From an uncultured Mucilaginibacter sp. (GTDB taxonomy: Bacteria > Bacteroidota > Bacteroidia > Sphingobacteriales > Sphingobacteriaceae): a DNA stretch of 64,000 nt. The stretch spans positions 1 through 64,000 of the forward strand of contig CAITEP010000004.1 of the NCBI GenBank assembly GCA_903891475.1, in the 5' to 3' direction. The translations under genes were made by a program, and so were the position numbers. The first letter of the stretch is position 1; each line of letters begins with the position of its first letter. Under the pieces are notes generated by a model. That model saw nothing but the letters and a program-made list of their open reading frames with translations, ran no database searches and was not told the origin of the DNA. Shown here in pieces: positions 4,956-31,818 of this stretch.

Positions 4956-6935
4956 GTGAGATTGATTGATGATATATTATATATTGAGTTTGCCGAAATG
5001 GAGGCATGCGGAATCCCTCGCAATACTTTATTGCATTGGAAAGGGGTAAAAGACCCTGCCGATAAGCGCCGTACCATTTTTAACTATTTAGAGCTAAAGC
5101 CAAAGTATAAAGAACTGGTTACAAATAAATATGACAATCCATACTTGTTTGTGCATTATCAAGCAATTAAAAAATTTTTGCGTACAGATGTTAAGGCGAT
5201 TGATTTTTTTACTTCATACAGAACCAATGAAAATATTGTATTACCAGCCCGGTTTATCAAGGAATATTCAACATGCGCAAATTGGCTTAATTTAATTATC
5301 GAGGTTGAAGGCAACTGGCGTATTTGTAAAAAGGCACTATTTATGCAAAGTAAGCCCGAATTATACCATGCGCTTTGTAAACTATTTAAAACTGAAAATG
5401 TAAAGTTACCCAAGGCATATTGCTCCTTAAAGCAAAAGGTAGCTATTTATAAGCAGGATGGTTATTCCTCGCTTGTTTCAAAAAAATTTGGGAATAGCAA
5501 TAGTAAAAAAGTAAAGCACGAACTTAACCATGCCTTATTGATAGAGATGCTGAGCCATAGCATGCAATATACCGATGCTTTTATTGCCGAAAAATACAAT
5601 CAAGCTATCAAAAAACTAAATGCTGGTTTTAAAACCATATCGGCCAATACGGTTGGTAATTATCGTAAAAAATATTCGGTTGAAGTTGATGGCTCAAGAC
5701 TTGGCAAGGATGCTTGGTATAATAAAGCGGGTAAAGTAATTCACCGTAAACGAGCCAGCATGCCATTAATGCTTATAAATAGTGATGATAATGAACTGGA
5801 TGTGTTTTTTCAACAAGTTAAAACCAACAAGACAGGGCATAAGGTGGCTCATTATTACTACCGCCCTTATTTGTATGTGGTGATAGATACCTTTAATGAC
5901 TATATACTTGGTTATGCCATTGGTGATACCAACACGCAGGATCTGGTAAAAGCAGCCTACCTAAATGCGGCAAACCACGTTCGGCAACTTACAGGTGGGC
6001 GTTTTTTATGGCAACAAATACAAACCGACCGCTGGGGAATTGATAAAAATGCCAAAAACGATTTCAGTCAGTTTTTTAGCAACCAAGCTGCTTTTAGTCC
6101 TACTATGCTGGGCAATTCGCGTGGTAAGGTAATTGAACAGGTTTTTCGTGGGCATTGGAGCGCCAAACTGAAAGAACTTTTCCCCATCAATTATTCCGGA
6201 ACTAATATTACTGCAAAAACCCACATCCCACGTGAGTGGTTAGAGGCAAACAAAAAAGATTTCCCGAAGGTAGAGGATGCCGAAGTATTGATTGCTGGCT
6301 TTATTAACGAAATGCGCCAGCTTATTGATAGCCGCACAGGCATCTCAAAACAACAGCAATGGCTCAATGCATTTAATGCAATGCCAAATGATAAGAAACG
6401 TCAAATTACCGACGAACAGCATTTACTATGGCTTGGGTTTGAGCATACAAATTCGCGAAGTGGAGAACAAGAACTGAATACACTAACAAACAAAGGACTC
6501 ACCCCGGTAATAAATGGTAAAAAGATGGTGTATGAAGTACCGGCTGAACATTACTTAAATACTATTGGAACTACCTGTAAAATAAAGTACGACCCATATG
6601 ACCTAAGCAAAGTATTAGCCATTAGCACGGATGAAAAAACAAGGTTGGTTTGCACACGATACGAGCTGATGCCAATGGCCAAAGCCGATTATGTGGAAGG
6701 TACCACAGATTATTTAAACAGCCGAATAGGTGAAAAAGCCGGACATGTAAAGTTATTGGGCGAAAAACGCGAACGCCGCCGTGAACTGCTGAGCCGGGCT
6801 CGATTAGATGCACATAGTTTGCTCACCGCTGGCATATTAAAAAAAGACATAAAACATGCCGCTACCAAATTGATGGAATCAAATTTTGATAACATTGATA
6901 TAGATGAAGAAATTGATATGAATGAATTGATGTGA
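4956..6935 (+). CDS. Mu-type transposase (MuA-like, DDE/rve integrase core)
   Basis: GTG start; rve core with VIDTFND, QTDRWGI and KVIEQVFRGHW as candidate D,D,E motifs; followed by AAA ATPase as in Mu A-B. Confidence 0.9.
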   Translation: MRLIDDILYIEFAEMEACGIPRNTLLHWKGVKDPADKRRTIFNYLELKPKYKELVTNKYDNPYLFVHYQAIKKFLRTDVKAIDFFTSYRTNENIVLPARFIKEYSTCANWLNLIIEVEGNWRICKKALFMQSKPELYHALCKLFKTENVKLPKAYCSLKQKVAIYKQDGYSSLVSKKFGNSNSKKVKHELNHALLIEMLSHSMQYTDAFIAEKYNQAIKKLNAGFKTISANTVGNYRKKYSVEVDGSRLGKDAWYNKAGKVIHRKRASMPLMLINSDDNELDVFFQQVKTNKTGHKVAHYYYRPYLYVVIDTFNDYILGYAIGDTNTQDLVKAAYLNAANHVRQLTGGRFLWQQIQTDRWGIDKNAKNDFSQFFSNQAAFSPTMLGNSRGKVIEQVFRGHWSAKLKELFPINYSGTNITAKTHIPREWLEANKKDFPKVEDAEVLIAGFINEMRQLIDSRTGISKQQQWLNAFNAMPNDKKRQITDEQHLLWLGFEHTNSRSGEQELNTLTNKGLTPVINGKKMVYEVPAEHYLNTIGTTCKIKYDPYDLSKVLAISTDEKTRLVCTRYELMPMAKADYVEGTTDYLNSRIGEKAGHVKLLGEKRERRRELLSRARLDAHSLLTAGILKKDIKHAATKLMESNFDNIDIDEEIDMNELM

Positions 6936-6939
6936 GCTT

Positions 6940-7060
6940 AGTAGCTAGTCGCTAATATCAAGATGAAGCCATTAAACTACTAGCTAAAATACTTGATACT
7001 AGAGACTAAATACTAGATACTAAAAAATAACTACTAGCTACTTGATACTAAATACTTGAT
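6940..7060. repeat. Intergenic 7-bp-periodic repeat, family B (TWNNTAC heptads)
   Basis: TTGATAC TAGAGAC TAAATAC TAGATAC ... TAGCTAC TTGATAC TAAATAC TTGATAC; left part has complementary TAGTAGCTAG. Confidence 0.8.
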
Positions 7061-7075
7061 ACTAAAAAAACAACC

Positions 7076-8032: not shown

Positions 8033-8197
8033 ATGGAAGTAATAACCAATTACCAAAAGGAGGTAAAAGTTTTACAAGAAAGACTAATAACCCTACCTGA
8101 CCATCAGCATATTGAGCGAAGCGAAATACGTACTCGCCTTTTAACCTTACTTAATGAATGGAACAAATTATTAAACAATAAAACCACCGTAAAATGA
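8033..8197 (+). CDS. Small early phage protein (54 aa), unknown
   Basis: MEVITNYQKEVKVLQERLITLPDHQHIERSEIRTRLLTLLNEWNKLLNNKTTVK; ATGA overlap with the Gam gene. Confidence 0.5.
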   Translation: MEVITNYQKEVKVLQERLITLPDHQHIERSEIRTRLLTLLNEWNKLLNNKTTVK

Positions 8198-8718: not shown

Positions 8719-8792
8719 AATACAATCCAAAAATAATTTTGAAAATAGTGCTATAATTAAAAAACAATTGCTAATTTTATTAGCCAAAAATT

Positions 8793-8880
8793 GGTTGAAG
8801 GTTGTACGCTGAAGGTTCTGAGTTTTAAGTAAATTCCTAAAAAAAAGCCTACAACATACAACCTTCAACCTACAACACAA
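8793..8880. repeat. Intergenic heptad inverted repeat, family A (GTTGNNN ... NNNCAAC)
   Basis: GGTTGAAGGTTGTACGCTGAAGGTT ... CCTACAACATACAACCTTCAACCTACAACACAAC. Confidence 0.8.
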
Positions 8881-8882
8881 CG

Positions 8883-9185
8883 ATGAAAATATACATATCA
8901 GGAAAAATATCGGGTTTACCATTTGAGCAGGTAACCCATAAATTTAACAGTGCCGAGGAGCGGCTGAATAAGCATGGCATTAAAAAGGTGGTGAACCCTA
9001 TTAAGCTTGACCATAGCGCCAATACCGAGCAAGATTGGGCCATATATATGAAAACCGATTTAAAAGCACTGTTAGATTGCGATACCATTTTAATGCTGCC
9101 CTGTTGGCGCGATAGTGCCGGTGCCAAAATGGAACTGCAAACCGCCCTTACCTTAAACTATAACGTGATTTGGGCGAGTGAATAA
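8883..9185 (+). CDS. DUF4406-like / nucleoside 2-deoxyribosyltransferase-like protein
   Basis: MKIYISGKISGLP...LLDCDTILMLPCWRDSAGAKMELQTA pattern. Confidence 0.75.
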   Translation: MKIYISGKISGLPFEQVTHKFNSAEERLNKHGIKKVVNPIKLDHSANTEQDWAIYMKTDLKALLDCDTILMLPCWRDSAGAKMELQTALTLNYNVIWASE

Positions 9186-13639: not shown

Positions 13640-13760
13640 TAATTTCGGATTTCGGATGTTCGATTTCGGATTTATTTGGGGATAATTAATTAGCTAAAAG
13701 TTAGTAGTTAAATAATGGTAGGTTAGCTTCCTATCTCACTACTCACCTCTCACTACTCAC
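13640..13760. repeat. Intergenic 7-bp-periodic repeats, families C1 (TTTCGGA) and C2 (CTCACTA)
   Basis: TTTCGGA TTTCGGA TGTTCGA TTTCGGA and CTCACTA CTCACCT CTCACTA CTCACAT. Confidence 0.75.
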
Positions 13761-13768
13761 ATCTTAAC

Positions 13769-15430: not shown

Positions 15431-16702
15431 TTAGTAATCAATATTTTCTATTGGCTCCGCTGCTTTGGTATTGGTTTGGGTATCGCCATCGGCTGCCACA
15501 ACATCGGTTTTTAATCCAAGTATTTTCACGCCAAATTTCTGGGCTACTTGTTGCTGATCGAGCTGAAAACCCATTGCATCAATACCCTGGTAAATTTTAA
15601 GCAGGCTATCAAGATCTTCTGGTTGATCCCATTCAAAACTATCTCCAGCCTCAAAAGGGTAACCATGTTCTTCCATCAACATTTTGAGCCAATGTTCGTT
15701 TACCAGCGTACGGAAACCGCGTTCATCGTCCTTGGTAATCTGATCTTTTACACGTTCATGCACCTCCCCTTGACTACGGCTACTGCCGTTCATGCTCGTC
15801 ATGGTTTGGCCGCAGGCTAGAATGGCAAGCTCCTCATTTATGGCCGTAATTTTTTGCTGAAACACGCTAAAAGCGTCTGTTTGTTTGTTTTCGCGGATAT
15901 CAATGTCGGTACCTTCAGGGAAAATGCCATAGCTGGCCGAGCCCATGTTTACCAGCCAGTTTTGTATTTCGTTTTGTACACGCGGATCCTGACTAGCCGT
16001 TTTTGCTATCCTGATAGGGATACCAAACATCTCCTCGAACTGATCCCAACTTTGCCAGCTATGTTTTTTGATGATGAGTAAGGGTGCGGCAATGTTGAGC
16101 AAACCCAAATCGAAAGGGTCGCCAATGGGGAATACATAGTTGGAAAGCGGGCGTTGCTGATAGTCGATGCCATCAAATTCATTTTGAAAGGGGGTAACCA
16201 CATGTTTTTCGGGATGCACATGCTTACGAGGAAGCAACACCATATTTTGTATGTTAGAGATGCTGCCATCAAAACTCAAGCTATCAATATACGGTAATGA
16301 GTAGCCGTACAATTTTGATTCCATGTACCACAACATCAGTTTATAAAACCAGTCTTTTTGCAACAACTTGGTTTTTTCGGGTTGTTCTTCACCACTGGCG
16401 TTTACTATTTTAAAGGCCTTATTTTTTATGGGCAATACACGATGATTGTAAAAAAGCCCGTAAAAAAAGCCATCCAGAATTAAATCGTGGTATAAATCGT
16501 ACAATAAAGTACGTATGGGATAAACCGGGTTTTCTGCCGCTGCACGGGCAGCCAGCCAATCGCTCATAGCTTTGCTATATAAGGAGGATTGCTGAACAAT
16601 AATTTTTGATAATAACTTTGCCGGATCTTTTTTTATTTGCTGCCTATCGGCGGCGGTTAGTTTAATTGCACCACCTTGTGTTATATTGGAGTTCTTTTTC
16701 AT
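15431..16702 (-). CDS. Phage portal protein (Mu gp29-like, DUF935)
   Basis: LLYDLYHDLILDGFFYGLFYNHR, PFDLGLLNIAAPLLIIKKHSWQSWDQFEEMFGIPIRIAK; start moved to internal ATG because the track N-terminus reads a repeat element. Confidence 0.85.
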   Translation of the reverse strand: MKKNSNITQGGAIKLTAADRQQIKKDPAKLLSKIIVQQSSLYSKAMSDWLAARAAAENPVYPIRTLLYDLYHDLILDGFFYGLFYNHRVLPIKNKAFKIVNASGEEQPEKTKLLQKDWFYKLMLWYMESKLYGYSLPYIDSLSFDGSISNIQNMVLLPRKHVHPEKHVVTPFQNEFDGIDYQQRPLSNYVFPIGDPFDLGLLNIAAPLLIIKKHSWQSWDQFEEMFGIPIRIAKTASQDPRVQNEIQNWLVNMGSASYGIFPEGTDIDIRENKQTDAFSVFQQKITAINEELAILACGQTMTSMNGSSRSQGEVHERVKDQITKDDERGFRTLVNEHWLKMLMEEHGYPFEAGDSFEWDQPEDLDSLLKIYQGIDAMGFQLDQQQVAQKFGVKILGLKTDVVAADGDTQTNTKAAEPIENIDY

Positions 16703-16790: not shown

Positions 16791-16807
16791 GGCTTTAATG
16801 CTTTTTA

Positions 16808-16853
16808 CTAGCTACTACTCACCATTCACCACTCACTCACTCACCACTCACTA
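16808..16853. repeat. Intergenic heptad repeat, family C2 (CACTCAC-type)
   Basis: ACTAGCTACTACTCACCATTCACCACTCACTCACTCACCACTCACT; overlaps the 3' end of the adjacent minus-strand CDS. Confidence 0.7.
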
Positions 16854-17254
16854 AAATACTTCCCATTGTCGCCGAAGCGCCAGGATGGGTCGGTACTTAG
16901 GTCAGGGATTTTTGGTAGTGATGGGTCAAGTTTACCATGGTTTACTTTGTTTAGCCATTCAATAGCGGCTTTGTAACGGTCTTCCCGATTTTTGGGAATG
17001 GCCCTGCCTGCAATGCTACTGTGTAGGTGATAAACCGCCATATCAATCATATACATGATAATAAGCGAGTTGCGTCCGGTTCCGGTAGCGGCAAAAATGG
17101 CGGCAACATCATATCCCCGTGGGCGCAGGTAACTGGTAATTTCTTCCTGCGCCATGTTTTCGGCATTGGCTCTGCTTAGCGCATCGGTGGTTAACATGCT
17201 TAAAATGGTGCTGCGTGTTTGCACATCATAATCTTGGTCTGTTAAAAAGCTCAT
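16841..17254 (-). CDS. Mu gp36-like protein (DUF1320 family)
   Basis: MSFLTDQDYDVQTRSTILSMLT...IIMYMIDMAVYHLHSSIAGRAIPKNREDRYKAAIEWLNKV. Confidence 0.78.
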   Translation of the reverse strand: MSFLTDQDYDVQTRSTILSMLTTDALSRANAENMAQEEITSYLRPRGYDVAAIFAATGTGRNSLIIMYMIDMAVYHLHSSIAGRAIPKNREDRYKAAIEWLNKVNHGKLDPSLPKIPDLSTDPSWRFGDNGKYFSEW

Positions 17255-17502
17255 TTATTTTTTCCTTCCTTTAGTTCTTTTACATCGGCTTGTAATACAG
17301 ATACTTGGCTTTCAAGTACTTTTAGCCTTACATCATAAACCCGGTAAGCCAATTCTTGTTGGTCTTTTACATTGGTAATGTCGGCCTTTAAATTGCTGTA
17401 GGTTATTACCACGCTAGCCACTATGCTAATGGTGCTAAACATTGTAATCAATAAATTTTTTAGGGTAATTCCTTTTAGTTCTTTTTCTTCAATTGCAGTC
17501 AT
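17251..17502 (-). CDS. Small single-TM coiled-coil protein, possible lysis-accessory (inner-spanin-like)
   Basis: TM LLITMFSTISIVASVVITYSN followed by coiled coil VYDVRLKVLESQVSVLQADVKELKEGK; overlaps next gene. Confidence 0.45.
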   Translation of the reverse strand: MTAIEEKELKGITLKNLLITMFSTISIVASVVITYSNLKADITNVKDQQELAYRVYDVRLKVLESQVSVLQADVKELKEGKNK

Positions 17503-17506
17503 TTTT

Positions 17507-17608
17507 GTGTTGTGTGTTGTGCGTTGTATGTTGTATGTGGGTTGAAGGTTGTATGTTGTGGTTTGTGGGGGTTTCCTTTCAACTTTTAACCTACAACCTA
17601 CAACCTAA
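17507..17608. repeat. Intergenic heptad inverted repeat, family A
   Basis: GTGTTGTGTGTTGTGCGTTGTATGTTGTATGTGGGTTGAAGGTTG ... CAACTTTTAACCTACAACCTACAACC. Confidence 0.85.
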
Positions 17609-17610
17609 AT

Positions 17611-19185
17611 TCACCAACCTTTACGTGCGTCCCTCCCAATCATGGGCTTAAAATCCCTATCAGGTTTGTGTTGGTCGAGGTAGTGCCAAGCGGCTTCGTC
17701 GGCATCGGGGGCATCGTCGGGGGTTTTGTAGCCGGGTTCAATGCCTTTTAGCTGGTTGTTGCCTTCTACCATGTCGGGGTCGTACATTTCATCAATGTTG
17801 TAATAGTTTTGGTTATTGATGTACGAGGGTTGCATTTTTACCATGCGTACATATTTGTTTTCTTTTTTGCGGGTATCTGTTAGTACAGTTAGTTCTGGTT
17901 TTCCTTGTTTTACCCTTTTTTTGTTGTGCTCAAACAAAGCATCGTTTATGGGGCGGGTAATAAACTGTTTCTCCATATACCATAAAATGGCTGTGCCTTT
18001 AGGTAGTTTGTCTTCCAGGTTACTCATCCATTCAAAAGCATCTATAATAGGCGCACGGCGCACAAAGCTTTTTAGGCAATGGCGTTGCCAATCGTTCCCT
18101 GCGGTTTTATAACCACCCCAAACGCGGATGGCCTTAAAATCCGAGGTAGGGTTATCCTCAAACGAAGGGTCGAAATAGCCGATAATTACGGTGTATTGAG
18201 GCAACAAATGCCACATTTTGATATAATGCAGCATGCTATCCTTAAAAATTTCGCCTTCCACATGGTTTTCATGAAAAAGCTCGGTGCGACCAATAATGCC
18301 GGCGGCGGCTAGTTTGCTGTTAATCATCTCCAGCGTATAGCGTTCTTTCCAAGCAGGTTCGCCCGTTGCAGGGTCGATGGCGAATATTTTGGAGTGGTAA
18401 ATATTTTCGCGGCGAGGTGCTCCGGCTTTGATATCGCCCACCATATGCGCCAATACACTTTGCGCGTGAATGCGGTTTCCAGCTACTACCAGCGTACCCC
18501 CTCGCGTATCTAAGGCAAAATACAAGGCACCTAAAACCCGTTTAATTATTTTTTTTACCCGCTGTTGGTTGTTCACCAATTCATCGTCATCAATATCATC
18601 GCATACCGCATAGTTTGGTCGGCGTTGTCCTTTACGCGCCCCCCGAGGACTCTGGTCTCTCCCAATACCTAAAAACCGGATACCTGTTTTGGTGGTAAAA
18701 TCGCCAGTTTGCCAATCGCCAAAGTTGTATTGCTCGCCCCAATCGTATATAAAAAGGGCATTGTATTGCAATTGCGCTTGGATATCGCCTAATAGGTTAC
18801 AGGCATCGGCTTCGTTTTTACCCATCAAAATCATGCCGCTTAGTTTGCCATGTGCCATCATCCACATAGGGATAATAATATTGGCATGTACCGATTTTGC
18901 ATGCTCGCGTGGCCATTCTAATACAGCAATCAAGTTTGGATCAGTCGCAGGTCTTTTCTTCAACACAATGGTATTGGCCGCTTTGATATGAAAGTCAGCA
19001 CAGTCAACATCGGCATAAAGAGGGAAATAGGTTTTTACAAAAAAGTTATAATCCTTCAAGGCCTTGTTTTTGCGAGCCTGTTGCTGATTGGTTGTTTCGG
19101 TCAGGTTTACTGCCAGGGCACTTTGTACTTGTCCGCAATATTCCTTCCAATCGTTATAGGTGCGTTTTTCAATACTGCTAACCAT
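17611..19185 (-). CDS. Terminase large subunit (Mu gp28-like)
   Basis: ATPase region VLEWPREHAKSVHANIIIPMWM, CDDIDDDE; nuclease-like IIGYFDPSFEDNPTSDFKAI. Confidence 0.85.
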   Translation of the reverse strand: MVSSIEKRTYNDWKEYCGQVQSALAVNLTETTNQQQARKNKALKDYNFFVKTYFPLYADVDCADFHIKAANTIVLKKRPATDPNLIAVLEWPREHAKSVHANIIIPMWMMAHGKLSGMILMGKNEADACNLLGDIQAQLQYNALFIYDWGEQYNFGDWQTGDFTTKTGIRFLGIGRDQSPRGARKGQRRPNYAVCDDIDDDELVNNQQRVKKIIKRVLGALYFALDTRGGTLVVAGNRIHAQSVLAHMVGDIKAGAPRRENIYHSKIFAIDPATGEPAWKERYTLEMINSKLAAAGIIGRTELFHENHVEGEIFKDSMLHYIKMWHLLPQYTVIIGYFDPSFEDNPTSDFKAIRVWGGYKTAGNDWQRHCLKSFVRRAPIIDAFEWMSNLEDKLPKGTAILWYMEKQFITRPINDALFEHNKKRVKQGKPELTVLTDTRKKENKYVRMVKMQPSYINNQNYYNIDEMYDPDMVEGNNQLKGIEPGYKTPDDAPDADEAAWHYLDQHKPDRDFKPMIGRDARKGW

Positions 19186-19609
19186 TGCTAACCAAGCCGT
19201 TTATAAATTCGCGTTGATAGTTGTTAATTTGCTTAGCCATTGCGGCATCCCTGCTTAGCAACCAGGTGGTAAACTCCTTTGCACAATTAATATGGTGACT
19301 AATGGTTACCTTTTTATTGCTCATAAAATCAATACCTCGGGTAATTTTTACCAACGCGTCAACGTCTATCTTATCAGCATCTACCAAATTTTCCAGCTTT
19401 AGGTAAAGTTTTTTCAGGATGGTGGCCGTAGTAATATTACCCGCGCCCTTCAGCATGGCCCATTGCCCTTTTTCTTTATGGGTGATGAAGGTGGCTTCCG
19501 TCCAGCCAACCATTTTACAGATTTCCTTTTGAGACTTATCCGTATTCAAATACATTTCGAGGGCAAGCTCCCGTTTAGTGTCGCGGTTTAGTTTTTCAGT
19601 TTTAGCCAT
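19178..19609 (-). CDS. Terminase small subunit-like protein
   Basis: Real start MAKTEKLNRDTKRELALEMYLNTDKSQKEICKMVGWTEATFITHKEKGQW (HTH); overlaps TerL; upstream track sequence is translated heptad repeat. Confidence 0.75.
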   Translation of the reverse strand: MAKTEKLNRDTKRELALEMYLNTDKSQKEICKMVGWTEATFITHKEKGQWAMLKGAGNITTATILKKLYLKLENLVDADKIDVDALVKITRGIDFMSNKKVTISHHINCAKEFTTWLLSRDAAMAKQINNYQREFINGLVSNG

Positions 19610-19616
19610 TTTTATT

Positions 19617-19817
19617 TGGGTTGAAGGTTGTGGGTTGTGCGTTGAAGGTTGTAAGTTGTGGGTTGTGCGTTGAAGGTGGTAAGTTGGGTGGTATGGTTGC
19701 TGCTTTTGAGTTTCAGGTTGTCCGTTTTGTTTATTACCTATTATAACCTTCAACCAAAGACCTACAACCTTCAACCCACAAACCTCCTACAACCCACAAC
19801 TCCCTTACAACCCTTCC
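19617..19817. repeat. Intergenic heptad inverted repeat, family A (longest copy)
   Basis: GTTGAAGGTTGTGGGTTGTGCGTTGAAGGTTGTAAGTTGTGGGTTGTGCGTTGAAGG ... CCTTCAACCAAAGACCTACAACCTTCAACCCACAAACC. Confidence 0.88.
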
Positions 19818-19987
19818 GATTCCGCTACAAAAATGTGCTAAATCTCTTATGAAAATAAATCATTATTTCATTAAGAAACTTAATTAAACAACACTAAAAC
19901 ATATTTCTGTTTTACACAGAATTTTGCGTTTTTTTTATGATTTTTTTCGTCGCACTTTTGAACCGTTGAAAATGATGGACGGGAGTT

Positions 19988-20096
19988 TTGGTTGAAGGTT
20001 GCAGGTTTTAGGTTGGATGAAATAAACTATCAACCCAAACCTTAAAACCAAAAAACCCCAAAACCTACAACCTTCAACCCACAACTTACAACCAAG
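19988..20096. repeat. Intergenic heptad inverted repeat, family A
   Basis: GGTTGAAGGTTGCAGGTTTTAGGTTGG ... CCAAAACCTACAACCTTCAACCCACAACTTACAACC. Confidence 0.88.
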
Positions 20097-20101
20097 AAAA
20101 G

Positions 20102-21118
20102 ATGGCCTTAAAAAAAAGCAGTAAACGATTTGTATTAAGCGATGAAACCCGCAACCTGTACGGTTTTGTAACCAAAACGGAAGGAATTGATTTGAAAGCT
20201 TTTCAGGATAACCCGGTGATGTTGTATAACCACGACTATAACAAATTGATTGGTCAGTGGATAGACTGCCGTATAGAAGGCCGCAAGCTTACCGCATCGC
20301 CGGCTTTTGATGAGGAGGATACATTGGCCATGCAAACTTATAACAAAGTGGAGCAAGGCATATTGAAAGGCGCGTCAATAGGTATATCGCCCACAAAATT
20401 CGATGATAAAAAAAGCGAAATGAGTGCCTGTGTTCTTTTAGAAGCAAGCCTGACACCGGTACCTAATAACCGAAACGCGCTGGCGGTATATAATACAAAG
20501 GGCGATAAGCTGAACGCGAGCGAAATAAACCAATACCTCCTTTCGGTGGAGCTAGATACCGAAACATTCATAAAAAAAACAAAAAGCATGAACGAAAAAA
20601 TTATTGTGGCTCTGATGGCCCTTTGTGCCCAAGTCGGACAGCCAATTAACCTGACGGCCGAAACTAGTGAAGATGAAGTTGAACAAGCAATTAAAAAAGC
20701 CGCTGAAAAAGTTGCTGAGCTTTTAAGTGCCAAAGCAAGTTTAACTGCGCAAATACAAACCCTGGAGGCCGAGAAAACCCTACAAACCGAAAACGAAATT
20801 GACCAAATTTTGGCCAATGCGGTAAACCAAAAAGTATTAAGTGCAGGAGATGTTGCTGCATGGAGGGCGTTTGGCATGGTAAATCTGGACGCGATGAAAA
20901 CCAGTTTAGCCAACCTGAAACCTGTGCAAGTAATAACCATGCCTAATAATCAAACCCATAATGGTAATACAGATGTTGCCCACTGGGGTTATGACGAATA
21001 TGCCCTAAATGCGCCAACCGAGCTGGAACAAATGCAAGTAACCAATCCACAAAAATTCCAAGCCCTACTAAGTGCCAAACAACAAAAAGCCAGGCAAGTG
21101 TATAGCATGGAAGGGTAA
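20102..21118 (+). CDS. Prohead protease (HK97/S78-like) with scaffold-like C-terminus
   Basis: LKAFQDNPVMLYNHDYNKLIGQW...GILKGASIGISP...LLEASLTPVPNNRNAL; coiled-coil C-terminal region. Confidence 0.82.
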   Translation: MALKKSSKRFVLSDETRNLYGFVTKTEGIDLKAFQDNPVMLYNHDYNKLIGQWIDCRIEGRKLTASPAFDEEDTLAMQTYNKVEQGILKGASIGISPTKFDDKKSEMSACVLLEASLTPVPNNRNALAVYNTKGDKLNASEINQYLLSVELDTETFIKKTKSMNEKIIVALMALCAQVGQPINLTAETSEDEVEQAIKKAAEKVAELLSAKASLTAQIQTLEAEKTLQTENEIDQILANAVNQKVLSAGDVAAWRAFGMVNLDAMKTSLANLKPVQVITMPNNQTHNGNTDVAHWGYDEYALNAPTELEQMQVTNPQKFQALLSAKQQKARQVYSMEG

Positions 21119-21120
21119 TT

Positions 21121-21300
21121 GGGTTGAATGTTCTATTTGTGTTATAGGTTGAATGTTAAAGGTTGTAGGAAATACATGCATTGCCTTATAACCCAAAAAG
21201 TAAAACCCATAAAACTCCTACGACATTCAACTTTCAACTCACAACCCACAACTCAAAACAGACAACACACAACCTTCAACTCACAACACACAACTTACAA
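21121..21300. repeat. Intergenic heptad inverted repeat, family A
   Basis: GGGTTGAATG...GGTTGAATGTTAAAGGTTGTAGG ... CCTACGACATTCAACTTTCAACTCACAACCCACAACTC...CAACCTTCAACTCACAACACACAAC. Confidence 0.85.
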
Positions 21301-22422: not shown

Positions 22423-22481
22423 TAGTAAAGGGAACCCGGAGCCAGCAGTATGATATAAGCGGCTCCGCCCTTTAAAAACAG

Positions 22482-22672
22482 TATCAAGTATTTAGTATCA
22501 AGTAGCTAGATACTTTGTAATTGGATTTAAATAAAAATCTTATTAAAAAAAGTATTTAGTATTTAGAAACAAGTAGCTAGACAAAAAAGTGAAGCTTGAA
22601 ATGTTACCTTCTACCTGATTCTTATACTAGTTACTTAATACTATCTACTTGATACTAAATACTAGCTACTAA
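22482..22672. repeat. Intergenic heptad inverted repeat, family B
   Basis: AGTATCAAGTATTTAGTATCAAGTAGCTAGATAC ... TACTAGTTACTTAATACTATCTACTTGATACTAAATACTAGCTACT. Confidence 0.88.
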
Positions 22673-22673
22673 A

Positions 22674-24067: not shown

Positions 24068-25309
24068 ATGGCACCAAGACCAAACGTCACTATAAACAAA
24101 ACAAACGGCAATTTGGGCCGAAGGGCACCCAGTACCGATAATGTATTCGGGCTCATCATATCGGCACCGGCTATTGCAGGGGGCATGCAAAATGGGGTGG
24201 TATATGCAATGGCGAGCATTAACGATGCTATTGCAATAGGTATTACAGCCGCATACGATGCCACTAACACCATATTGGTTTACCACCATATTTACAGGTT
24301 CTTTTTACGCAACCCGAGTGCAACCCTTTACTTTATGAGCGCGCCACAAACCGCGGCATTAGCTGATATGACGCTTTCAACAGGCAACTATGCACCAGTA
24401 TTGTTAAAATCGCAAAATGGAAATATAAAATATGTAGGTGTTGCGCGTAACCCTGCTGCCGGCTATACACCAACTTTAACTGCAGGGCTTGATGGAGATG
24501 TACTCACGGCTGTAAACAATGCCCAAGCATTATACACGGCTGAATTTTCGAAATACCGCTATGCGGGCTTCCTAATTGAGGGCCGTAGCTTTAACGGAAC
24601 AGCGGCGGCGGCAACCAACCTACGCGGCTTAAACTGCCCCAATGTTAGCGTAACCATTGCTGCCGATAACGCCATCAGCACCTCAAAAACACAATATGCA
24701 GGCTATGCCGCTGTGGGTGATGTGCTGGGTATTTTAAGTTTGGCAAAGGTGAGTCAGGATTTAGGCGAGCTTACACCATCATTCAATTTGCAAAACCTTG
24801 GTTTGGGTTTATTTGCCACAGCAGGCTTAAGCTCCGGCCTACCCATGAGCAGCTATGCAGATGCCGACCTTGATACGCTAAACACCAGCGGATACATCTT
24901 CCCGGATGTTACAGCGGGGGTAAGTGGTTATTACCTGAGCGATAGTCATACTTGTTCATCAATTACCAGTAATGACTTTGCCTATATTGAAAACAACCGT
25001 ACCATTGAAAAGGCGATATTTTTAGCCAGACAAGCAATTTTACCACTCGTAAAAAGCAGGATAAAGGTTGACCCCATTACCGGATTGCTATTGCCACAAC
25101 AAGCCAAAGCCATTGAAACCTTGGGTGAAAGAAGTTTAGCGGGTATGTACAAAGATGGCGACATCAGCGGAGGCATTGATTGTTTTGTTGACAGAAATCA
25201 AAATATCCTTTCAACATCACAATTACTGATACAATTAACATTTGTGCCGGTAGCCATTGGCAGGGCAATCACTTTGAGCTTAGGCTTTACAAATTCTTAT
25301 AGAAAGTAG
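24068..25309 (+). CDS. Contractile tail sheath protein
   Basis: Position before tube; sheath-like C-terminus DGDISGGIDCFVDRNQNILSTSQLLIQLTFVPVAIGRAITLSLGFTN. Confidence 0.75.
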   Translation: MAPRPNVTINKTNGNLGRRAPSTDNVFGLIISAPAIAGGMQNGVVYAMASINDAIAIGITAAYDATNTILVYHHIYRFFLRNPSATLYFMSAPQTAALADMTLSTGNYAPVLLKSQNGNIKYVGVARNPAAGYTPTLTAGLDGDVLTAVNNAQALYTAEFSKYRYAGFLIEGRSFNGTAAAATNLRGLNCPNVSVTIAADNAISTSKTQYAGYAAVGDVLGILSLAKVSQDLGELTPSFNLQNLGLGLFATAGLSSGLPMSSYADADLDTLNTSGYIFPDVTAGVSGYYLSDSHTCSSITSNDFAYIENNRTIEKAIFLARQAILPLVKSRIKVDPITGLLLPQQAKAIETLGERSLAGMYKDGDISGGIDCFVDRNQNILSTSQLLIQLTFVPVAIGRAITLSLGFTNSYRK

Positions 25310-25310
25310 G

Positions 25311-25425
25311 TTGTAGGTGAGTTGAAGGTTGTAGGTTGAAAGTTGAAGGGAACCCCCCACAACCCACAACCCACAACCCACAACGTGAAACCCACATGCA
25401 ACATACAACCCACAACATTCAACAC
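25311..25425. repeat. Intergenic heptad inverted repeat, family A
   Basis: GTTGTAGGTGAGTTGAAGGTTGTAGGTTGAAAGTTGAAGGG ... CCCCACAACCCACAACCCACAACCCACAACGTG...CAACATACAACCCACAACATTCAAC. Confidence 0.88.
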
Positions 25426-25432
25426 TAAAAAA

Positions 25433-25861
25433 ATGGCAGATATAGCAATAAACGGGCTCTTGTACTCATGGGCCGATGTAAGAATTAACCTTTTAGGCCG
25501 CGACATTGTAGGCATTTTAGCCGTGGACTACGAAGACGGACAAACAACTAAGGCGGTTTACGGCCACGGAAAAAAACGTATAGGCAGGGTAAGCGGCATG
25601 TATACTGCCAGCGCTACGCTCACTTTAGAAATGGGTGAAGTGGAAGCCTTGAATTTGAGCTTACCAACGGGGACAAGCATGTATGATATCGCCCCGTTTG
25701 ATGTAACCATTTCATACGTTAACAGCGAGCAAATATTGGTAACCCATGTATTGCATCAATGCATTTTCACCAAACAAAACCGAACATCAAAAGCGGGAGA
25801 GGTAAAAGAAATTGAAGTTAAACTACCGCTGGATGTAGCCGATATTGATTGGCAGGCGTAA
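25433..25861 (+). CDS. Tail tube protein
   Basis: MADIAINGLLYSWADVRINLLGRDIVGILAVDYEDGQTTKAVYGHGKKRIGR; between sheath and chaperone; start corrected downstream of repeat. Confidence 0.72.
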   Translation: MADIAINGLLYSWADVRINLLGRDIVGILAVDYEDGQTTKAVYGHGKKRIGRVSGMYTASATLTLEMGEVEALNLSLPTGTSMYDIAPFDVTISYVNSEQILVTHVLHQCIFTKQNRTSKAGEVKEIEVKLPLDVADIDWQA

Positions 25862-25865
25862 GAGA

Positions 25866-25970
25866 GTAGCAAGTATTTAGTATCAAGACAATAGTATTTT
25901 GTAGCTCCTATGTTAGGGGCCAACCTAAAGACCTCCTCTTGATACTTTATACTAGTTACTAGCTACTAAA
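25866..25970. repeat. Intergenic heptad inverted repeat, family B
   Basis: GTAGCAAGTATTTAGTATCAAGAC ... CTTGATACTTTATACTAGTTACTAGCTACTAAA. Confidence 0.8.
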
Positions 25971-26014
25971 ATATCATTTAAACACTTATTAAACTACGAA
26001 TAAACCCCATTCAA

Positions 26015-26422
26015 ATGTCAAAAAAAGAAACTAAACTAACTGAAGAGCTTGAAGAAGTAACCTATTCAGATTCAGAATTTGAGCAAAAAACGGAGGTTCC
26101 TCAATTATTGCATGCTGGGGTATCTCAAGACCAATTGGACCTCTGGAAAGAAAAATACAAAGAGGTGCACATTGTCACTGTTAAGTTGAATGAACATGAA
26201 AGTTTAACAGGCTATTTTAAAAAATCCGACCGCAACATAATGGCCAACTGCATTAACCTGGCGCAAGACAAGAAAAACTATGAGGCAAGAGAGTTTTTGT
26301 TGAATAACACTTTTATTGGGGGCGACAAAACCATTACCACCAATTTTGACGCTGCTGTAAGTGTCGCAACAAAACTTTGGGGCAACATAAATTTTTTGAC
26401 GGCGGAGGCAACAATATATTAG
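26015..26422 (+). CDS. Tail assembly chaperone, zero-frame product (G-like)
   Basis: Lies after tail tube; ends in overlap with a -1 frame ORF containing a canonical slippery sequence. Confidence 0.72.
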   Translation: MSKKETKLTEELEEVTYSDSEFEQKTEVPQLLHAGVSQDQLDLWKEKYKEVHIVTVKLNEHESLTGYFKKSDRNIMANCINLAQDKKNYEAREFLLNNTFIGGDKTITTNFDAAVSVATKLWGNINFLTAEATIY

Positions 26423-26637
26423 GTGCTCCCTTCCTTTCCATTTCCGACCCGATAACCAGGTTGGAAGGAAGAGATATCCTCCGCAAGGCAAACGCGCTGC
26501 TTAGATATCATTTTAAAATCGATCCTGAGCAACTAACGGATGAGCAATTTTCAGAACGATGGCAAGAACTAAAATGGGTACTTGAATTTGAGAACCAACG
26601 ATACAGTGATGAAGGTAGTGGTGGATGCAGGTTATAG
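26377..26637 (+). CDS. Tail assembly chaperone extension (T-like), expressed by -1 frameshift from 26015
   Basis: -1 frame relative to 26015; slippery A AAT TTT (26389-26395) and T TTT TTG (26392-26398); predicted fusion ..WGNINFL-DGGGNNILGAPFLS.. of 207 aa. Confidence 0.72.
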   Translation: MGQHKFFDGGGNNILGAPFLSISDPITRLEGRDILRKANALLRYHFKIDPEQLTDEQFSERWQELKWVLEFENQRYSDEGSGGCRL

Positions 26638-26770
26638 TTGAAGGTTGTAGGTTGTGTGTTGTAAGTGAATTTTAGGTTGAATACTGATATCGACGGAAAT
26701 GAATGAATAACAAGGCATAAAATACAAGTCACAGCACTGAGCCCACAACCTTCAACCCACAACATACAAC
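26633..26770. repeat. Intergenic heptad inverted repeat, family A
   Basis: GTTGAAGGTTGTAGGTTGTGTGTTGTAAG ... CCCACAACCTTCAACCCACAACATACAAC. Confidence 0.88.
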
Positions 26771-26777
26771 TAAAAGA

Positions 26778-27455
26778 ATGGCAGATTTTAACATACCACA
26801 ATTATATAAGCAAGTTTTTGGTGTTTCGGCAATAACATTTAATATCCCTGATCAATCGGCAGTTTTGGGCAATGTATCTAATAGTAGGGCAGCATATAAT
26901 GGTATAGAATTGGTTAAGAATAATCAAACGCCTATCACTAATTATCAAAATTTAGACACCATTGGTAATAGTAATACAAAGCCAGTTAACAGCATTTTGG
27001 GAACACCAATTTATGAGCAAATAACGCTAACAATACCTGCAGTACAAAGCTCCGGAGGGCAAGTAACAAGTCCACAATTCAGCTATATTTTCCCCGATTG
27101 GCCTTTGTTTGATATAGCTCCCTCATGGACTATTAAAAAGGAGAATATACTTGGTGGAAACGGTACAGTAAAGGAGTATATACAGCAGGATGATTTCGAG
27201 ATAAAAATAAGAGGCTTTTTGATTAATTATAGCTCGCAAGATTATCCGGAACAATTAGTTACTGATTTTTGGAGAGCTATTAACTGTCAAAAATCAATCG
27301 GCATTAGCTCCAAGGTTTTTAACATCTTACAAATAAAAAACATCATAGTAAAAAGTGCACAGTTGCCAAGTTTAGAGGGTTATATGAATATTCAACCATT
27401 TGAAATTGATTGTATAAGTGATGAGGCTATTGAACTATTGATAAAAAAAGTATAA
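26778..27455 (+). CDS. Phage tail-associated protein (DUF6046-like), tentative
   Basis: Between chaperone and LysM-like gene; YIFPDWPLFDIAPSW...IKIRGFLINYSSQDYPEQLVTDFW. Confidence 0.5.
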   Translation: MADFNIPQLYKQVFGVSAITFNIPDQSAVLGNVSNSRAAYNGIELVKNNQTPITNYQNLDTIGNSNTKPVNSILGTPIYEQITLTIPAVQSSGGQVTSPQFSYIFPDWPLFDIAPSWTIKKENILGGNGTVKEYIQQDDFEIKIRGFLINYSSQDYPEQLVTDFWRAINCQKSIGISSKVFNILQIKNIIVKSAQLPSLEGYMNIQPFEIDCISDEAIELLIKKV

Positions 27456-27478: not shown

Positions 27479-27790
27479 ATGAGGACTATTCAAGTAACCG
27501 ATCGTCAAACAATCATGGATATAGCCATACAATATTACGGTAGTGCCGCCTCGGTAGTTGATTTATGCATTGATAACAATCTTGAACTTGATGCCAATAT
27601 TAGCAACGGAGATCAATTGCTGATCAAGGATTTATATCCGGATAGTGCAAATGCCGATGCGGCTGATTATTTATTGGGAAATAGCATTAACGTAATCAGT
27701 TTGGCCGAATTTATTCCTACCAATGTTTTAGGCGACAACCAAGGAGATATACTAGCAATAAACAGTACAGATTTTTTAGGAACAGATTAA
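27479..27790 (+). CDS. LysM-like tail protein
   Basis: VTDRQTIMDIAIQYYGSAASVVDLCIDNNLELDANISNGDQLLI resembles LysM/gpX pattern. Confidence 0.6.
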   Translation: MRTIQVTDRQTIMDIAIQYYGSAASVVDLCIDNNLELDANISNGDQLLIKDLYPDSANADAADYLLGNSINVISLAEFIPTNVLGDNQGDILAINSTDFLGTD

Positions 27791-27866
27791 TGTGGGTTGA
27801 ATCACGATAGTTATCGGGATGAAGGAAAAACAACCTGCAACATACAAGCCACAACATATAACTATA
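27791..27866. repeat. Degenerate family A heptad repeat
   Basis: GTGGGTTGAATC ... CAACCTGCAACATACAAGCCACAACATATAAC. Confidence 0.6.
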
Positions 27867-27868
27867 AT

Positions 27869-28309
27869 ATGAGCATCATACAAATTAGCAATTTGCCTCC
27901 TGCTACTTCGGTAAACAGTACCGATATAATTCCATTATCGCAAGGAAACGGGCCTAATCAGGTTACGGGGCTTAGCATGACAGTTTTAAAATCATGGGTA
28001 TTAAATTTTGTTAACACATTAATTGCCGGCATTACCCAAGGGCCAACCGGCCCTGCAGGTGCAACGGGAGCACAAGGTTTGCAGGGGCAGCCAGGCCCGC
28101 AAGGTATACAAGGTCCGCTTGGCCCCCAAGGTCCTGTGGGGGCACAAGGGTTACAAGGATTAACAGGAGCAACCGGTCCCGCAGGGCCATTAGGCCCTCA
28201 GGGACCTGTAGGCCCAAGCGGGCCAGTTGGTCCTGCAGGTCCAATCGGACCCCAAGGACCAACCGGGGTTTATAAATTATCAGCTAACTTAATACAAATA
28301 TCATTATGA
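27869..28309 (+). CDS. Collagen-like tail fibre protein
   Basis: 25 contiguous Gly-X-Y triplets at 28040-28264; internal ATG start avoids translated repeat. Confidence 0.78.
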
Positions 28310-31429: not shown

Positions 31430-31726
31430 ATGAATGATATAGTTTTAGATAATAATATGGATTTGTCAATAATAGCCGGCGACTTTGTTGTTGACGATTG
31501 TGAAGACCAAATTCAGCAACTTTTGCTGATAGCTCAACCTGGCAATTTCAGAGATAGTCCTCTTACGGGAGTTGGTATAGTTAATTATCTAAAAAGCCAG
31601 ATAACACCATCCCTTGTTGATGCACTTACAAAGAAGATTCAAATACAATGGCTATATGACGGTTATGCCGGGGTAAACGTAGTGGTGAATTCCTTTACCG
31701 ATATTGAAATTGAAGCTAACAGGTAG
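31430..31726 (+). CDS. Baseplate wedge protein, GPW/gp25 family
   Basis: DIVLDNNMDLSIIAGDFVVDDCEDQIQQLLLIAQPGNFRDSPLTGVGI. Confidence 0.75.
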   Translation: MNDIVLDNNMDLSIIAGDFVVDDCEDQIQQLLLIAQPGNFRDSPLTGVGIVNYLKSQITPSLVDALTKKIQIQWLYDGYAGVNVVVNSFTDIEIEANR

Positions 31727-31818
31727 GTTGAAAGTTGTAGGTTGTAAGTTGAATGGAAACCCCCACAACCCATAACCTACAACTCACATACATCCTACAA
31801 CATACAACACACAACCCA
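31727..31818. repeat. Intergenic heptad inverted repeat, family A
   Basis: GGTTGAAAGTTGTAGGTTGTAAGTTGAATGG ... CCACAACCCATAACCTACAACTCACATACATCCTACAACATACAACACACAACCC. Confidence 0.88.

Follow-up and report, generated by a model that had tools for sequence, protein, structure and literature searches.

At orthologous intergenic gaps of Mucilaginibacter and other Sphingobacteriaceae, comparison of the sequences suggests that a hairpin is kept while the 7-nt words that build it are freely replaced between species. Two elements in gap 19610-20101 of the window, the stretch of 64,000 nucleotides that we analysed, appear to be members of this class of intercistronic hairpins at Sphingobacteriaceae gene edges, and the prophage resident there would carry the same class of hairpin as its host. 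We give somewhat better than even chances to the reading that these are lineage-wide RNA hairpins that retain their structure through a turnover of heptad words. Bacteria carry an excess of heptanucleotide repeats, for which, to our knowledge, no function is agreed. Here the sequence of a single orthologous gap is available from 50 species, and across them the hairpin and the 7-nt period stay and the words change. Why the unit is seven and whether the heptads act are now directly testable, by comparing species or by swapping words. The case is one of structure without sequence conservation, and covariance methods on aligned families will miss others like it.

Heptad arrays in the prophage and its host

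A Mu-like transposable prophage occupies about 4.9-34 kb of the window in this Mucilaginibacter-like genome, with transposition genes at 4956 and 7076, a Gam-like gene at 8194, a Mu-type portal at 15431 and a tail sheath gene at 24068. Gap 19610-20101 separates a minus-strand DNA-binding gene (19178-19609) and the minus-strand terminase (17611-19185) from the plus-strand prohead protease (20102) and major capsid (about 21304) genes. The earlier note, made from the letters of the window, had described two GTTG...CAAC inverted repeats in this gap, at 19617-19817 and 19988-20096, and both are present. The left arm of copy 1 (19617-19689) consists of GTTG-type heptads with nine in-phase cores at 19620-19686; it starts 8 nt away from the start codon of the minus-strand gene (19178-19609). 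The right arm of copy 1 (19751-19813, the span of its CAAC cores) consists of CAAC-type heptads with short interruptions. Copy 2 has a left arm of GTTG-type heptads at 19988-20015 (cores 19991-20015) and a right arm of CAAC-type heptads at 20062-20094 (cores 20062-20093), which ends 7 nt before the ATG at 20102. The heptads are degenerate: about 4 nt of each form a fixed core and three positions vary loosely. GGTTGNNGGTTG is present 14 times in the window, where dinucleotide shuffles predict 0.16, and the genome contains GTTGNNGGTTGNNGGTTG 30 times and, read backwards, 0 times.

Both copies fold far better than dinucleotide-shuffled sequence, as the proposal of long hairpins would have it. On the plus strand, the minimum free energy of copy 1 (19617-19817) was -79.8 against -54.4 for shuffles (z -5.84) and that of copy 2 (19988-20096) was -31.5 against -15.5 (z -6.11), with 0 of 200 shuffles as stable as either copy; control windows had a mean z of -0.06 (sd 1.24). 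The antisense strands gave z -4.4 and -5.8, respectively. The spacer between the copies (19818-19987), presumed to be the divergent control region, folds like shuffled sequence (z -1.08). The earlier note also placed a divergent promoter region in this gap: the two copies and the divergent genes stand, and the promoter itself is deduced from gene divergence, with no match to the Bacteroidota consensus TTG-N-TANNTTTG in gap 19610-20101. Each of the divergent phage operons has one hairpin, placed after the central spacer and ahead of the operon's first start codon; if the spacer holds the putative promoters, the hairpins would be leader structures. On inspection by eye, the stem of neither copy is followed by a T run on either strand, and no U tract was seen past the heptad stems at rpsN/rpsH. 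Because the stems lack a U tract, the heptad hairpins are not standard intrinsic terminators.

A de novo scan of 464 kb of the genome found 32 loci at lag 7, 27 of them intergenic, and 2-9 loci at other lags. The words fall into several families: A (GTTGNNN/CAACNNN), B (TAGTATC/GATACTA), C (GTGAGTG/CACTCAC), D (GTCAATA) and E (TTTCGGA). In the window, further family A hairpins lie before the gene at 8883 (8793-8876; z -5.76 over 8790-8880), between the minus-strand 17251-17502 and 17611-19185 (17509-17618; z -1.96 over 17503-17620), from the tail sheath gene to the next gene (25309-25423; z -3.86), before the gene at 26778 (26637-26770; z -2.70) and at 31724-31815 (z -4.57). A weak one precedes the gene at 27869 (27790-27855; z -2.08), and the one before the capsid gene (21122-21300; z -2.72) combines nine in-phase CAAC cores at 21228-21294 with a GTTG-type side that is sparse. 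Family B hairpins are found at 6936-7075 (mostly right arm; z -3.74), from the capsid gene to 22674 (22476-22673; z -7.68 over 22423-22673) and between 25433-25861 and 26015-26422 (25862-26014; z -3.97). Family C contributes an ACTCACC array at 16801-16855, which also contains family B remnants and lies where the minus-strand gene 16841-17254 has its 3' end, and a further array at 13733-13764. The modest fold z of some phage gaps, such as 17503-17620, counts against the reading of intercistronic RNA hairpins, as does the single arm apparent in some gaps. An Rfam scan of the window returned nothing at gathering score.

Arrays occupy 13 gaps in 29 kb of prophage and 21 gaps in 400 kb of host sample, and none were found in the 30 kb to the right of the prophage. 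Heptad elements are also present in the host housekeeping gaps rpsN/rpsH, era/der, iscA/iscU and kdpB/kdpC. The suggestion that they are something specific to the late-operon promoter region was not borne out, elements of the same kind being found in housekeeping gaps, in convergent gaps that lack promoters, in several interchangeable families and in related species. Among 60 relatives searched, a set that contained no other Sphingobacteriaceae genus, the exact family B and C patterns occurred in 17 and 26, respectively, all of the same genus. Some of the genomes compared carry distinctive forms. In G021 (loci L167-L186), family B is nearly uniform, with a 30-nt arm, a variable centre often of about 30 nt and a reverse-complement arm, and such elements occupy many co-directional gaps. 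In G034, G021 and G002, family C has expanded to long, near-perfect, one-sided tandem arrays (GTGAGTC, GTGAGTT and GTGAGTA), in contrast with the short, degenerate, paired arrays elsewhere.

Related phages suggest that the arrays go with the host lineage. The nearest relative of the terminase in named genomes is 89% identical and belongs to a Mucilaginibacter MAG (L057), whose phage is about 80% identical in shared genes and carries arrays at many corresponding gaps. Gap 17503-17610 holds family A here and families B and C in the L057 phage. Its divergent gap has two hairpin sites, the second mainly of family C, on either side of a spacer that is partly alignable with 19818-19987. Three closer virus contigs of unknown host contain no heptad arrays, and among phage relatives in genomes of other groups only L062 has any, at one locus. 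The idea that heptads are an old feature of this phage type is thus unsupported, the relatives outside Mucilaginibacter and the three closer contigs having none or one; given this scarcity, the heptads look like a host-lineage trait that the phage shares. The one exception, a phage-type locus in a Cytophagales MAG (L062:4795), builds its hairpin from ATTACGA heptads, a hint that the heptad habit reaches past Sphingobacteriaceae.

Polarity and pairing of the arms

The arrays have a strong polarity. We counted orientations in a 543 kb genome sample, partly fetched by pattern hits and with genes called as mechanical ORFs. In its 61 gaps with arrays, a GTTG-type array was followed by a CAAC-type array in 23 neighbouring pairs and the reverse was seen in 1 (binomial p 3e-6). 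The sole reversed pair, CAAC at 19751-19813 then GTTG at 19991-20015, is formed by copies 1 and 2 of the divergent gap. The fixed GTTG-left, CAAC-right order claimed earlier thus describes 23 of 24 neighbours, and the accompanying statement that the opposite order was not seen fails once, between the two copies; the opposite order is far from being equally common in the sample. The same polarity is common to the families TAGTATC, GTGAGTG and GTCAATA. It is kept even in mixed-family gaps (e.g. A-left with B-right), where the arms are unable to pair. Two-arm neighbours were of the same family in 19 of 23 cases, against 31% by chance.

Relative to genes, and read on the sense strand, the CAAC-type form predominates within 40 nt before start codons (32:2) and the GTTG-type form after stop codons (36:5). 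A G-poor arm beside the start codon may serve to keep the start region G-poor. A cause at start codons only is weakened, since convergent gaps follow the rule too, in 9 of 10 arrays. By symmetry, the direction of transcription or replication cannot set the polarity, because an inverted repeat is identical on both strands. Nor does hairpin function by itself explain it, as CAAC...GTTG would fold equally well. Strong hairpins of any kind were found in 9 of 22 convergent, 20 of 124 co-directional and 3 of 35 divergent host gaps. We found no general polarity among all gap hairpins in the genome (7 purine-left and 13 pyrimidine-left in co-directional gaps); the rule therefore belongs to the heptad class.

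The arms can pair in many registers, as had been proposed from their repeat structure: family A arms pair across loci. The mean pairing energy of family A arms (n=5) was -33.7 kcal/mol for own partners, -42.0 for swapped and -22.0 for shuffled ones. Since right arms from other family A loci suit a left arm at least as well as its own, pairing partners are not specific to a locus. In this genome, locus-specific matching was absent for families A and C and weak for family B, and the unmatched A and C arms count against intercistronic RNA hairpins as the best explanation. At orthologous gaps, own arms paired better than swapped arms in the C/F and E groups and hardly so in B and J.

Hairpins and words at orthologous gaps

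The gap between rpsN and rpsH, which holds a family B hairpin in this genome, was compared across 50 Mucilaginibacter genomes. The median fold z was -4.68 and 48 of the 50 gaps, which as species of one genus are non-independent samples, were below -2. The stem starts a median of 5 nt past the rpsN stop. Its words differ among species and include B, C/F (GAGATTA), E, G (AAAGCNT) and others; roughly one hairpin in four is non-heptad and of a type shared within a clade, which counts against the preferred reading. Identity between species was 0.69 in the hairpin part, close to the 0.68 of shuffled sequence, and 0.89 in the adjoining leader. At era/der, 27 of 29 genomes had a fold z below -2, the stem starting a median of 3 nt past the stop, and the words differ again (AAGAATC, GAGATTT). 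Other Sphingobacteriaceae genera were like Mucilaginibacter, with 16 of 17 gaps below z -2. No empty site was seen among the 50 rpsN/rpsH and 29 era/der gaps.

The period is specific. In three gap sets, the self-match of the arms at lag 7 was 0.485-0.527, against 0.29-0.32 in shuffled arms, and was about background at lags 4-6 and 8-12. The left arm was the purine-richer one in 43 of 50, 12 of 16 and 23 of 29 gaps of these sets. In other families of the class, the rpsN/rpsH gap is often short, and a heptad hairpin was present in 0 of the 19 readable gaps (of 20).

The rpsN/rpsH region has further structure of its own. Directly upstream of rpsH, a leader (TTAACCGATGGAAGGTC...GGAAACCACCATCAT) is conserved across Sphingobacteriaceae (L207-L236, L240-L259); it is about 60 nt long, forms a separate stem and is possibly the site of S8 autoregulation. 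In the three loci scanned, Rfam gave no family for this leader; we set aside two sub-threshold matches to eukaryotic families, both confined to L236. Six loci of one clade (L232, L243, L248, L249, L257 and L259) have a common hairpin, CCGGTTGCAGGTTGAGAATTAATTTCTTACCTTTGCGGCCGG, which includes a Bacteroidota-like promoter (TTG...TACCTTTG).

Explanations and known heptad repeats

The simplest reading of the kept structure, the replaced words, the position at the stop codon and the distribution over gap types is an RNA hairpin at cistron edges. Such a hairpin would be the selected feature, acting in mRNA 3'-end protection, processing or attenuation, and any complementary pair of arms would suffice, so that words could be replaced freely. 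The 7-nt period would come from the way in which arms arise, by 7-nt slippage and the copying of one arm onto the other. An effect of the hairpins on transcription or mRNA stability, as the earlier note had supposed for both late operons, is plausible, with the indirect backing of a hairpin kept at orthologous gaps. Alternatively, the arrays might be a mutational product that serves no function. Slippage in steps of 7 nt would then build the arrays, template switching would create and mend their inverted copies, and selection would only clear them from coding sequence and from harmful orientations at starts and stops. In many bacteria heptamers outnumber the other repeats with units of 5-11 nt, and slippage by 7 nt has been suggested (PMC4679880). 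The degenerate arms, unmatched per locus in this genome, fit such an origin, as do the complete differences in arrays between close phages. Hairpins at 48 of 50 rpsN/rpsH and 27 of 29 era/der gaps, with none empty, would be hard to obtain by drift, because strong hairpins are present in only about 16% of this genome's co-directional gaps. On balance, we regard a purely mutational origin as possible but unlikely.

We think it improbable that a dedicated Sphingobacteriaceae process writes 7-nt-phased inverted repeats at gene edges with changing words, temperate phages included, for example by templated or self-primed extension of DNA ends in heptad steps, which would yield a strand-symmetric polarity. 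Slightly more doubtful still are selfish, dispersed palindromes of MITE or REP type that insert in gaps and owe their polarity to a founder copy. The near-uniform family B elements of G021, with arm, variable centre and reverse-complement arm, look like such copies, and REP elements are similarly placed near gene ends (PMC3733652). Against insertion stand the lack of empty sites at rpsN/rpsH or era/der, the unconserved centres and the placement of the arms, which is not random but at both edges of genes. An origin of the heptads by RAYT transposition is likewise unsupported: paired heptad arrays flank none of the three Y1 transposase genes, and the nearest approach is a lone family B array 0.2 kb from one of them. 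Least probable of all, and by our estimate very much so, the heptads could be arrays of sites for a DNA- or RNA-binding protein. The constant period, the fixed core of each family and the CAAC-type arrays directly before starts would suit a binder, and S1, Csp and Csr proteins have been proposed for TAACTGA repeats (PMC4679880). A sequence-specific binder would not, however, tolerate unrelated words at one orthologous site between species.

The nearest known kinds are the GGGAATC heptamers of Xanthomonas and the TAACTGA repeats; the exchange of words among many families appears to be new. In Xanthomonas, GGGAATC heptamers form 70-75 convergent pairs per genome, near the upstream gene (mean 28 nt), and are commoner between co-directional and convergent genes; G-rich heptameric repeats of the form GGGGA(T/C)T are described from Nostoc (Rehm et al. 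2015, PMC4692102). Like GGGAATC, the arrays here are intergenic, degenerate tandem units of 7 nt in convergent pairs with the G-form left and the C-form right, close to the upstream gene (the median distances at rpsN/rpsH and era/der given above). The Xanthomonas genomes have one family each, with G-tracts able to form quadruplexes, whereas this genome has several families without GGG tracts; with cores GTTG, AGTA, GTGA and GTCA, the G-tracts of three needed for a G-quadruplex are absent. The Xanthomonas repeats are in the same place in two species in 83% of cases (PMC4692102), whereas here families are exchanged at orthologous gaps. TAACTGA occurs as direct heptad repeats before starts; a Bacteroidete provides one reversed case that follows a stop, and other heptamers have been noted in Bacteroidetes gaps (MacGregor 2015, PMC4679880). 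The likeness lies in heptads immediately before start codons, in fixed orientation, ribosomal operons included. TAACTGA is, however, one fixed word in direct repeats, and the present elements use many words, arrange them in inverted arms and conserve a hairpin. A genome with more than one kind of tandem heptanucleotide, as found here, is also known from Calothrix with its STRR heptamers, as cited in PMC4692102 (Mazel et al.), the source through which we compare them. In the mostly open-access literature that we searched, we found no account of many-family, word-exchanging hairpins in Sphingobacteriaceae.

REP/BIME elements with their RAYT are intergenic palindromes near gene 3' ends, mainly in co-directional and convergent gaps (PMC3733652), and the present hairpins resemble them in being intergenic palindromes at gene 3' ends. 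REP elements differ in their length of 20-40 bp, their GTAG or CGTC tag and the lack of a 7-nt period. Such a tag is absent from family A and C arms, and the GTAG of family B is inside the array, not an end tag. The RAYT genes here, moreover, lie among other repeats. The Y1 (REP-type) transposase genes are at G000:C4:80057, C11:90564 and C37:15225 (L237-L239), and those on C11 and C4 are found in clusters of short repeats distinct from heptads, namely GTTCCGTAGGAAC palindromes on C11 and GGGCTACCCTT-type repeats on C4.
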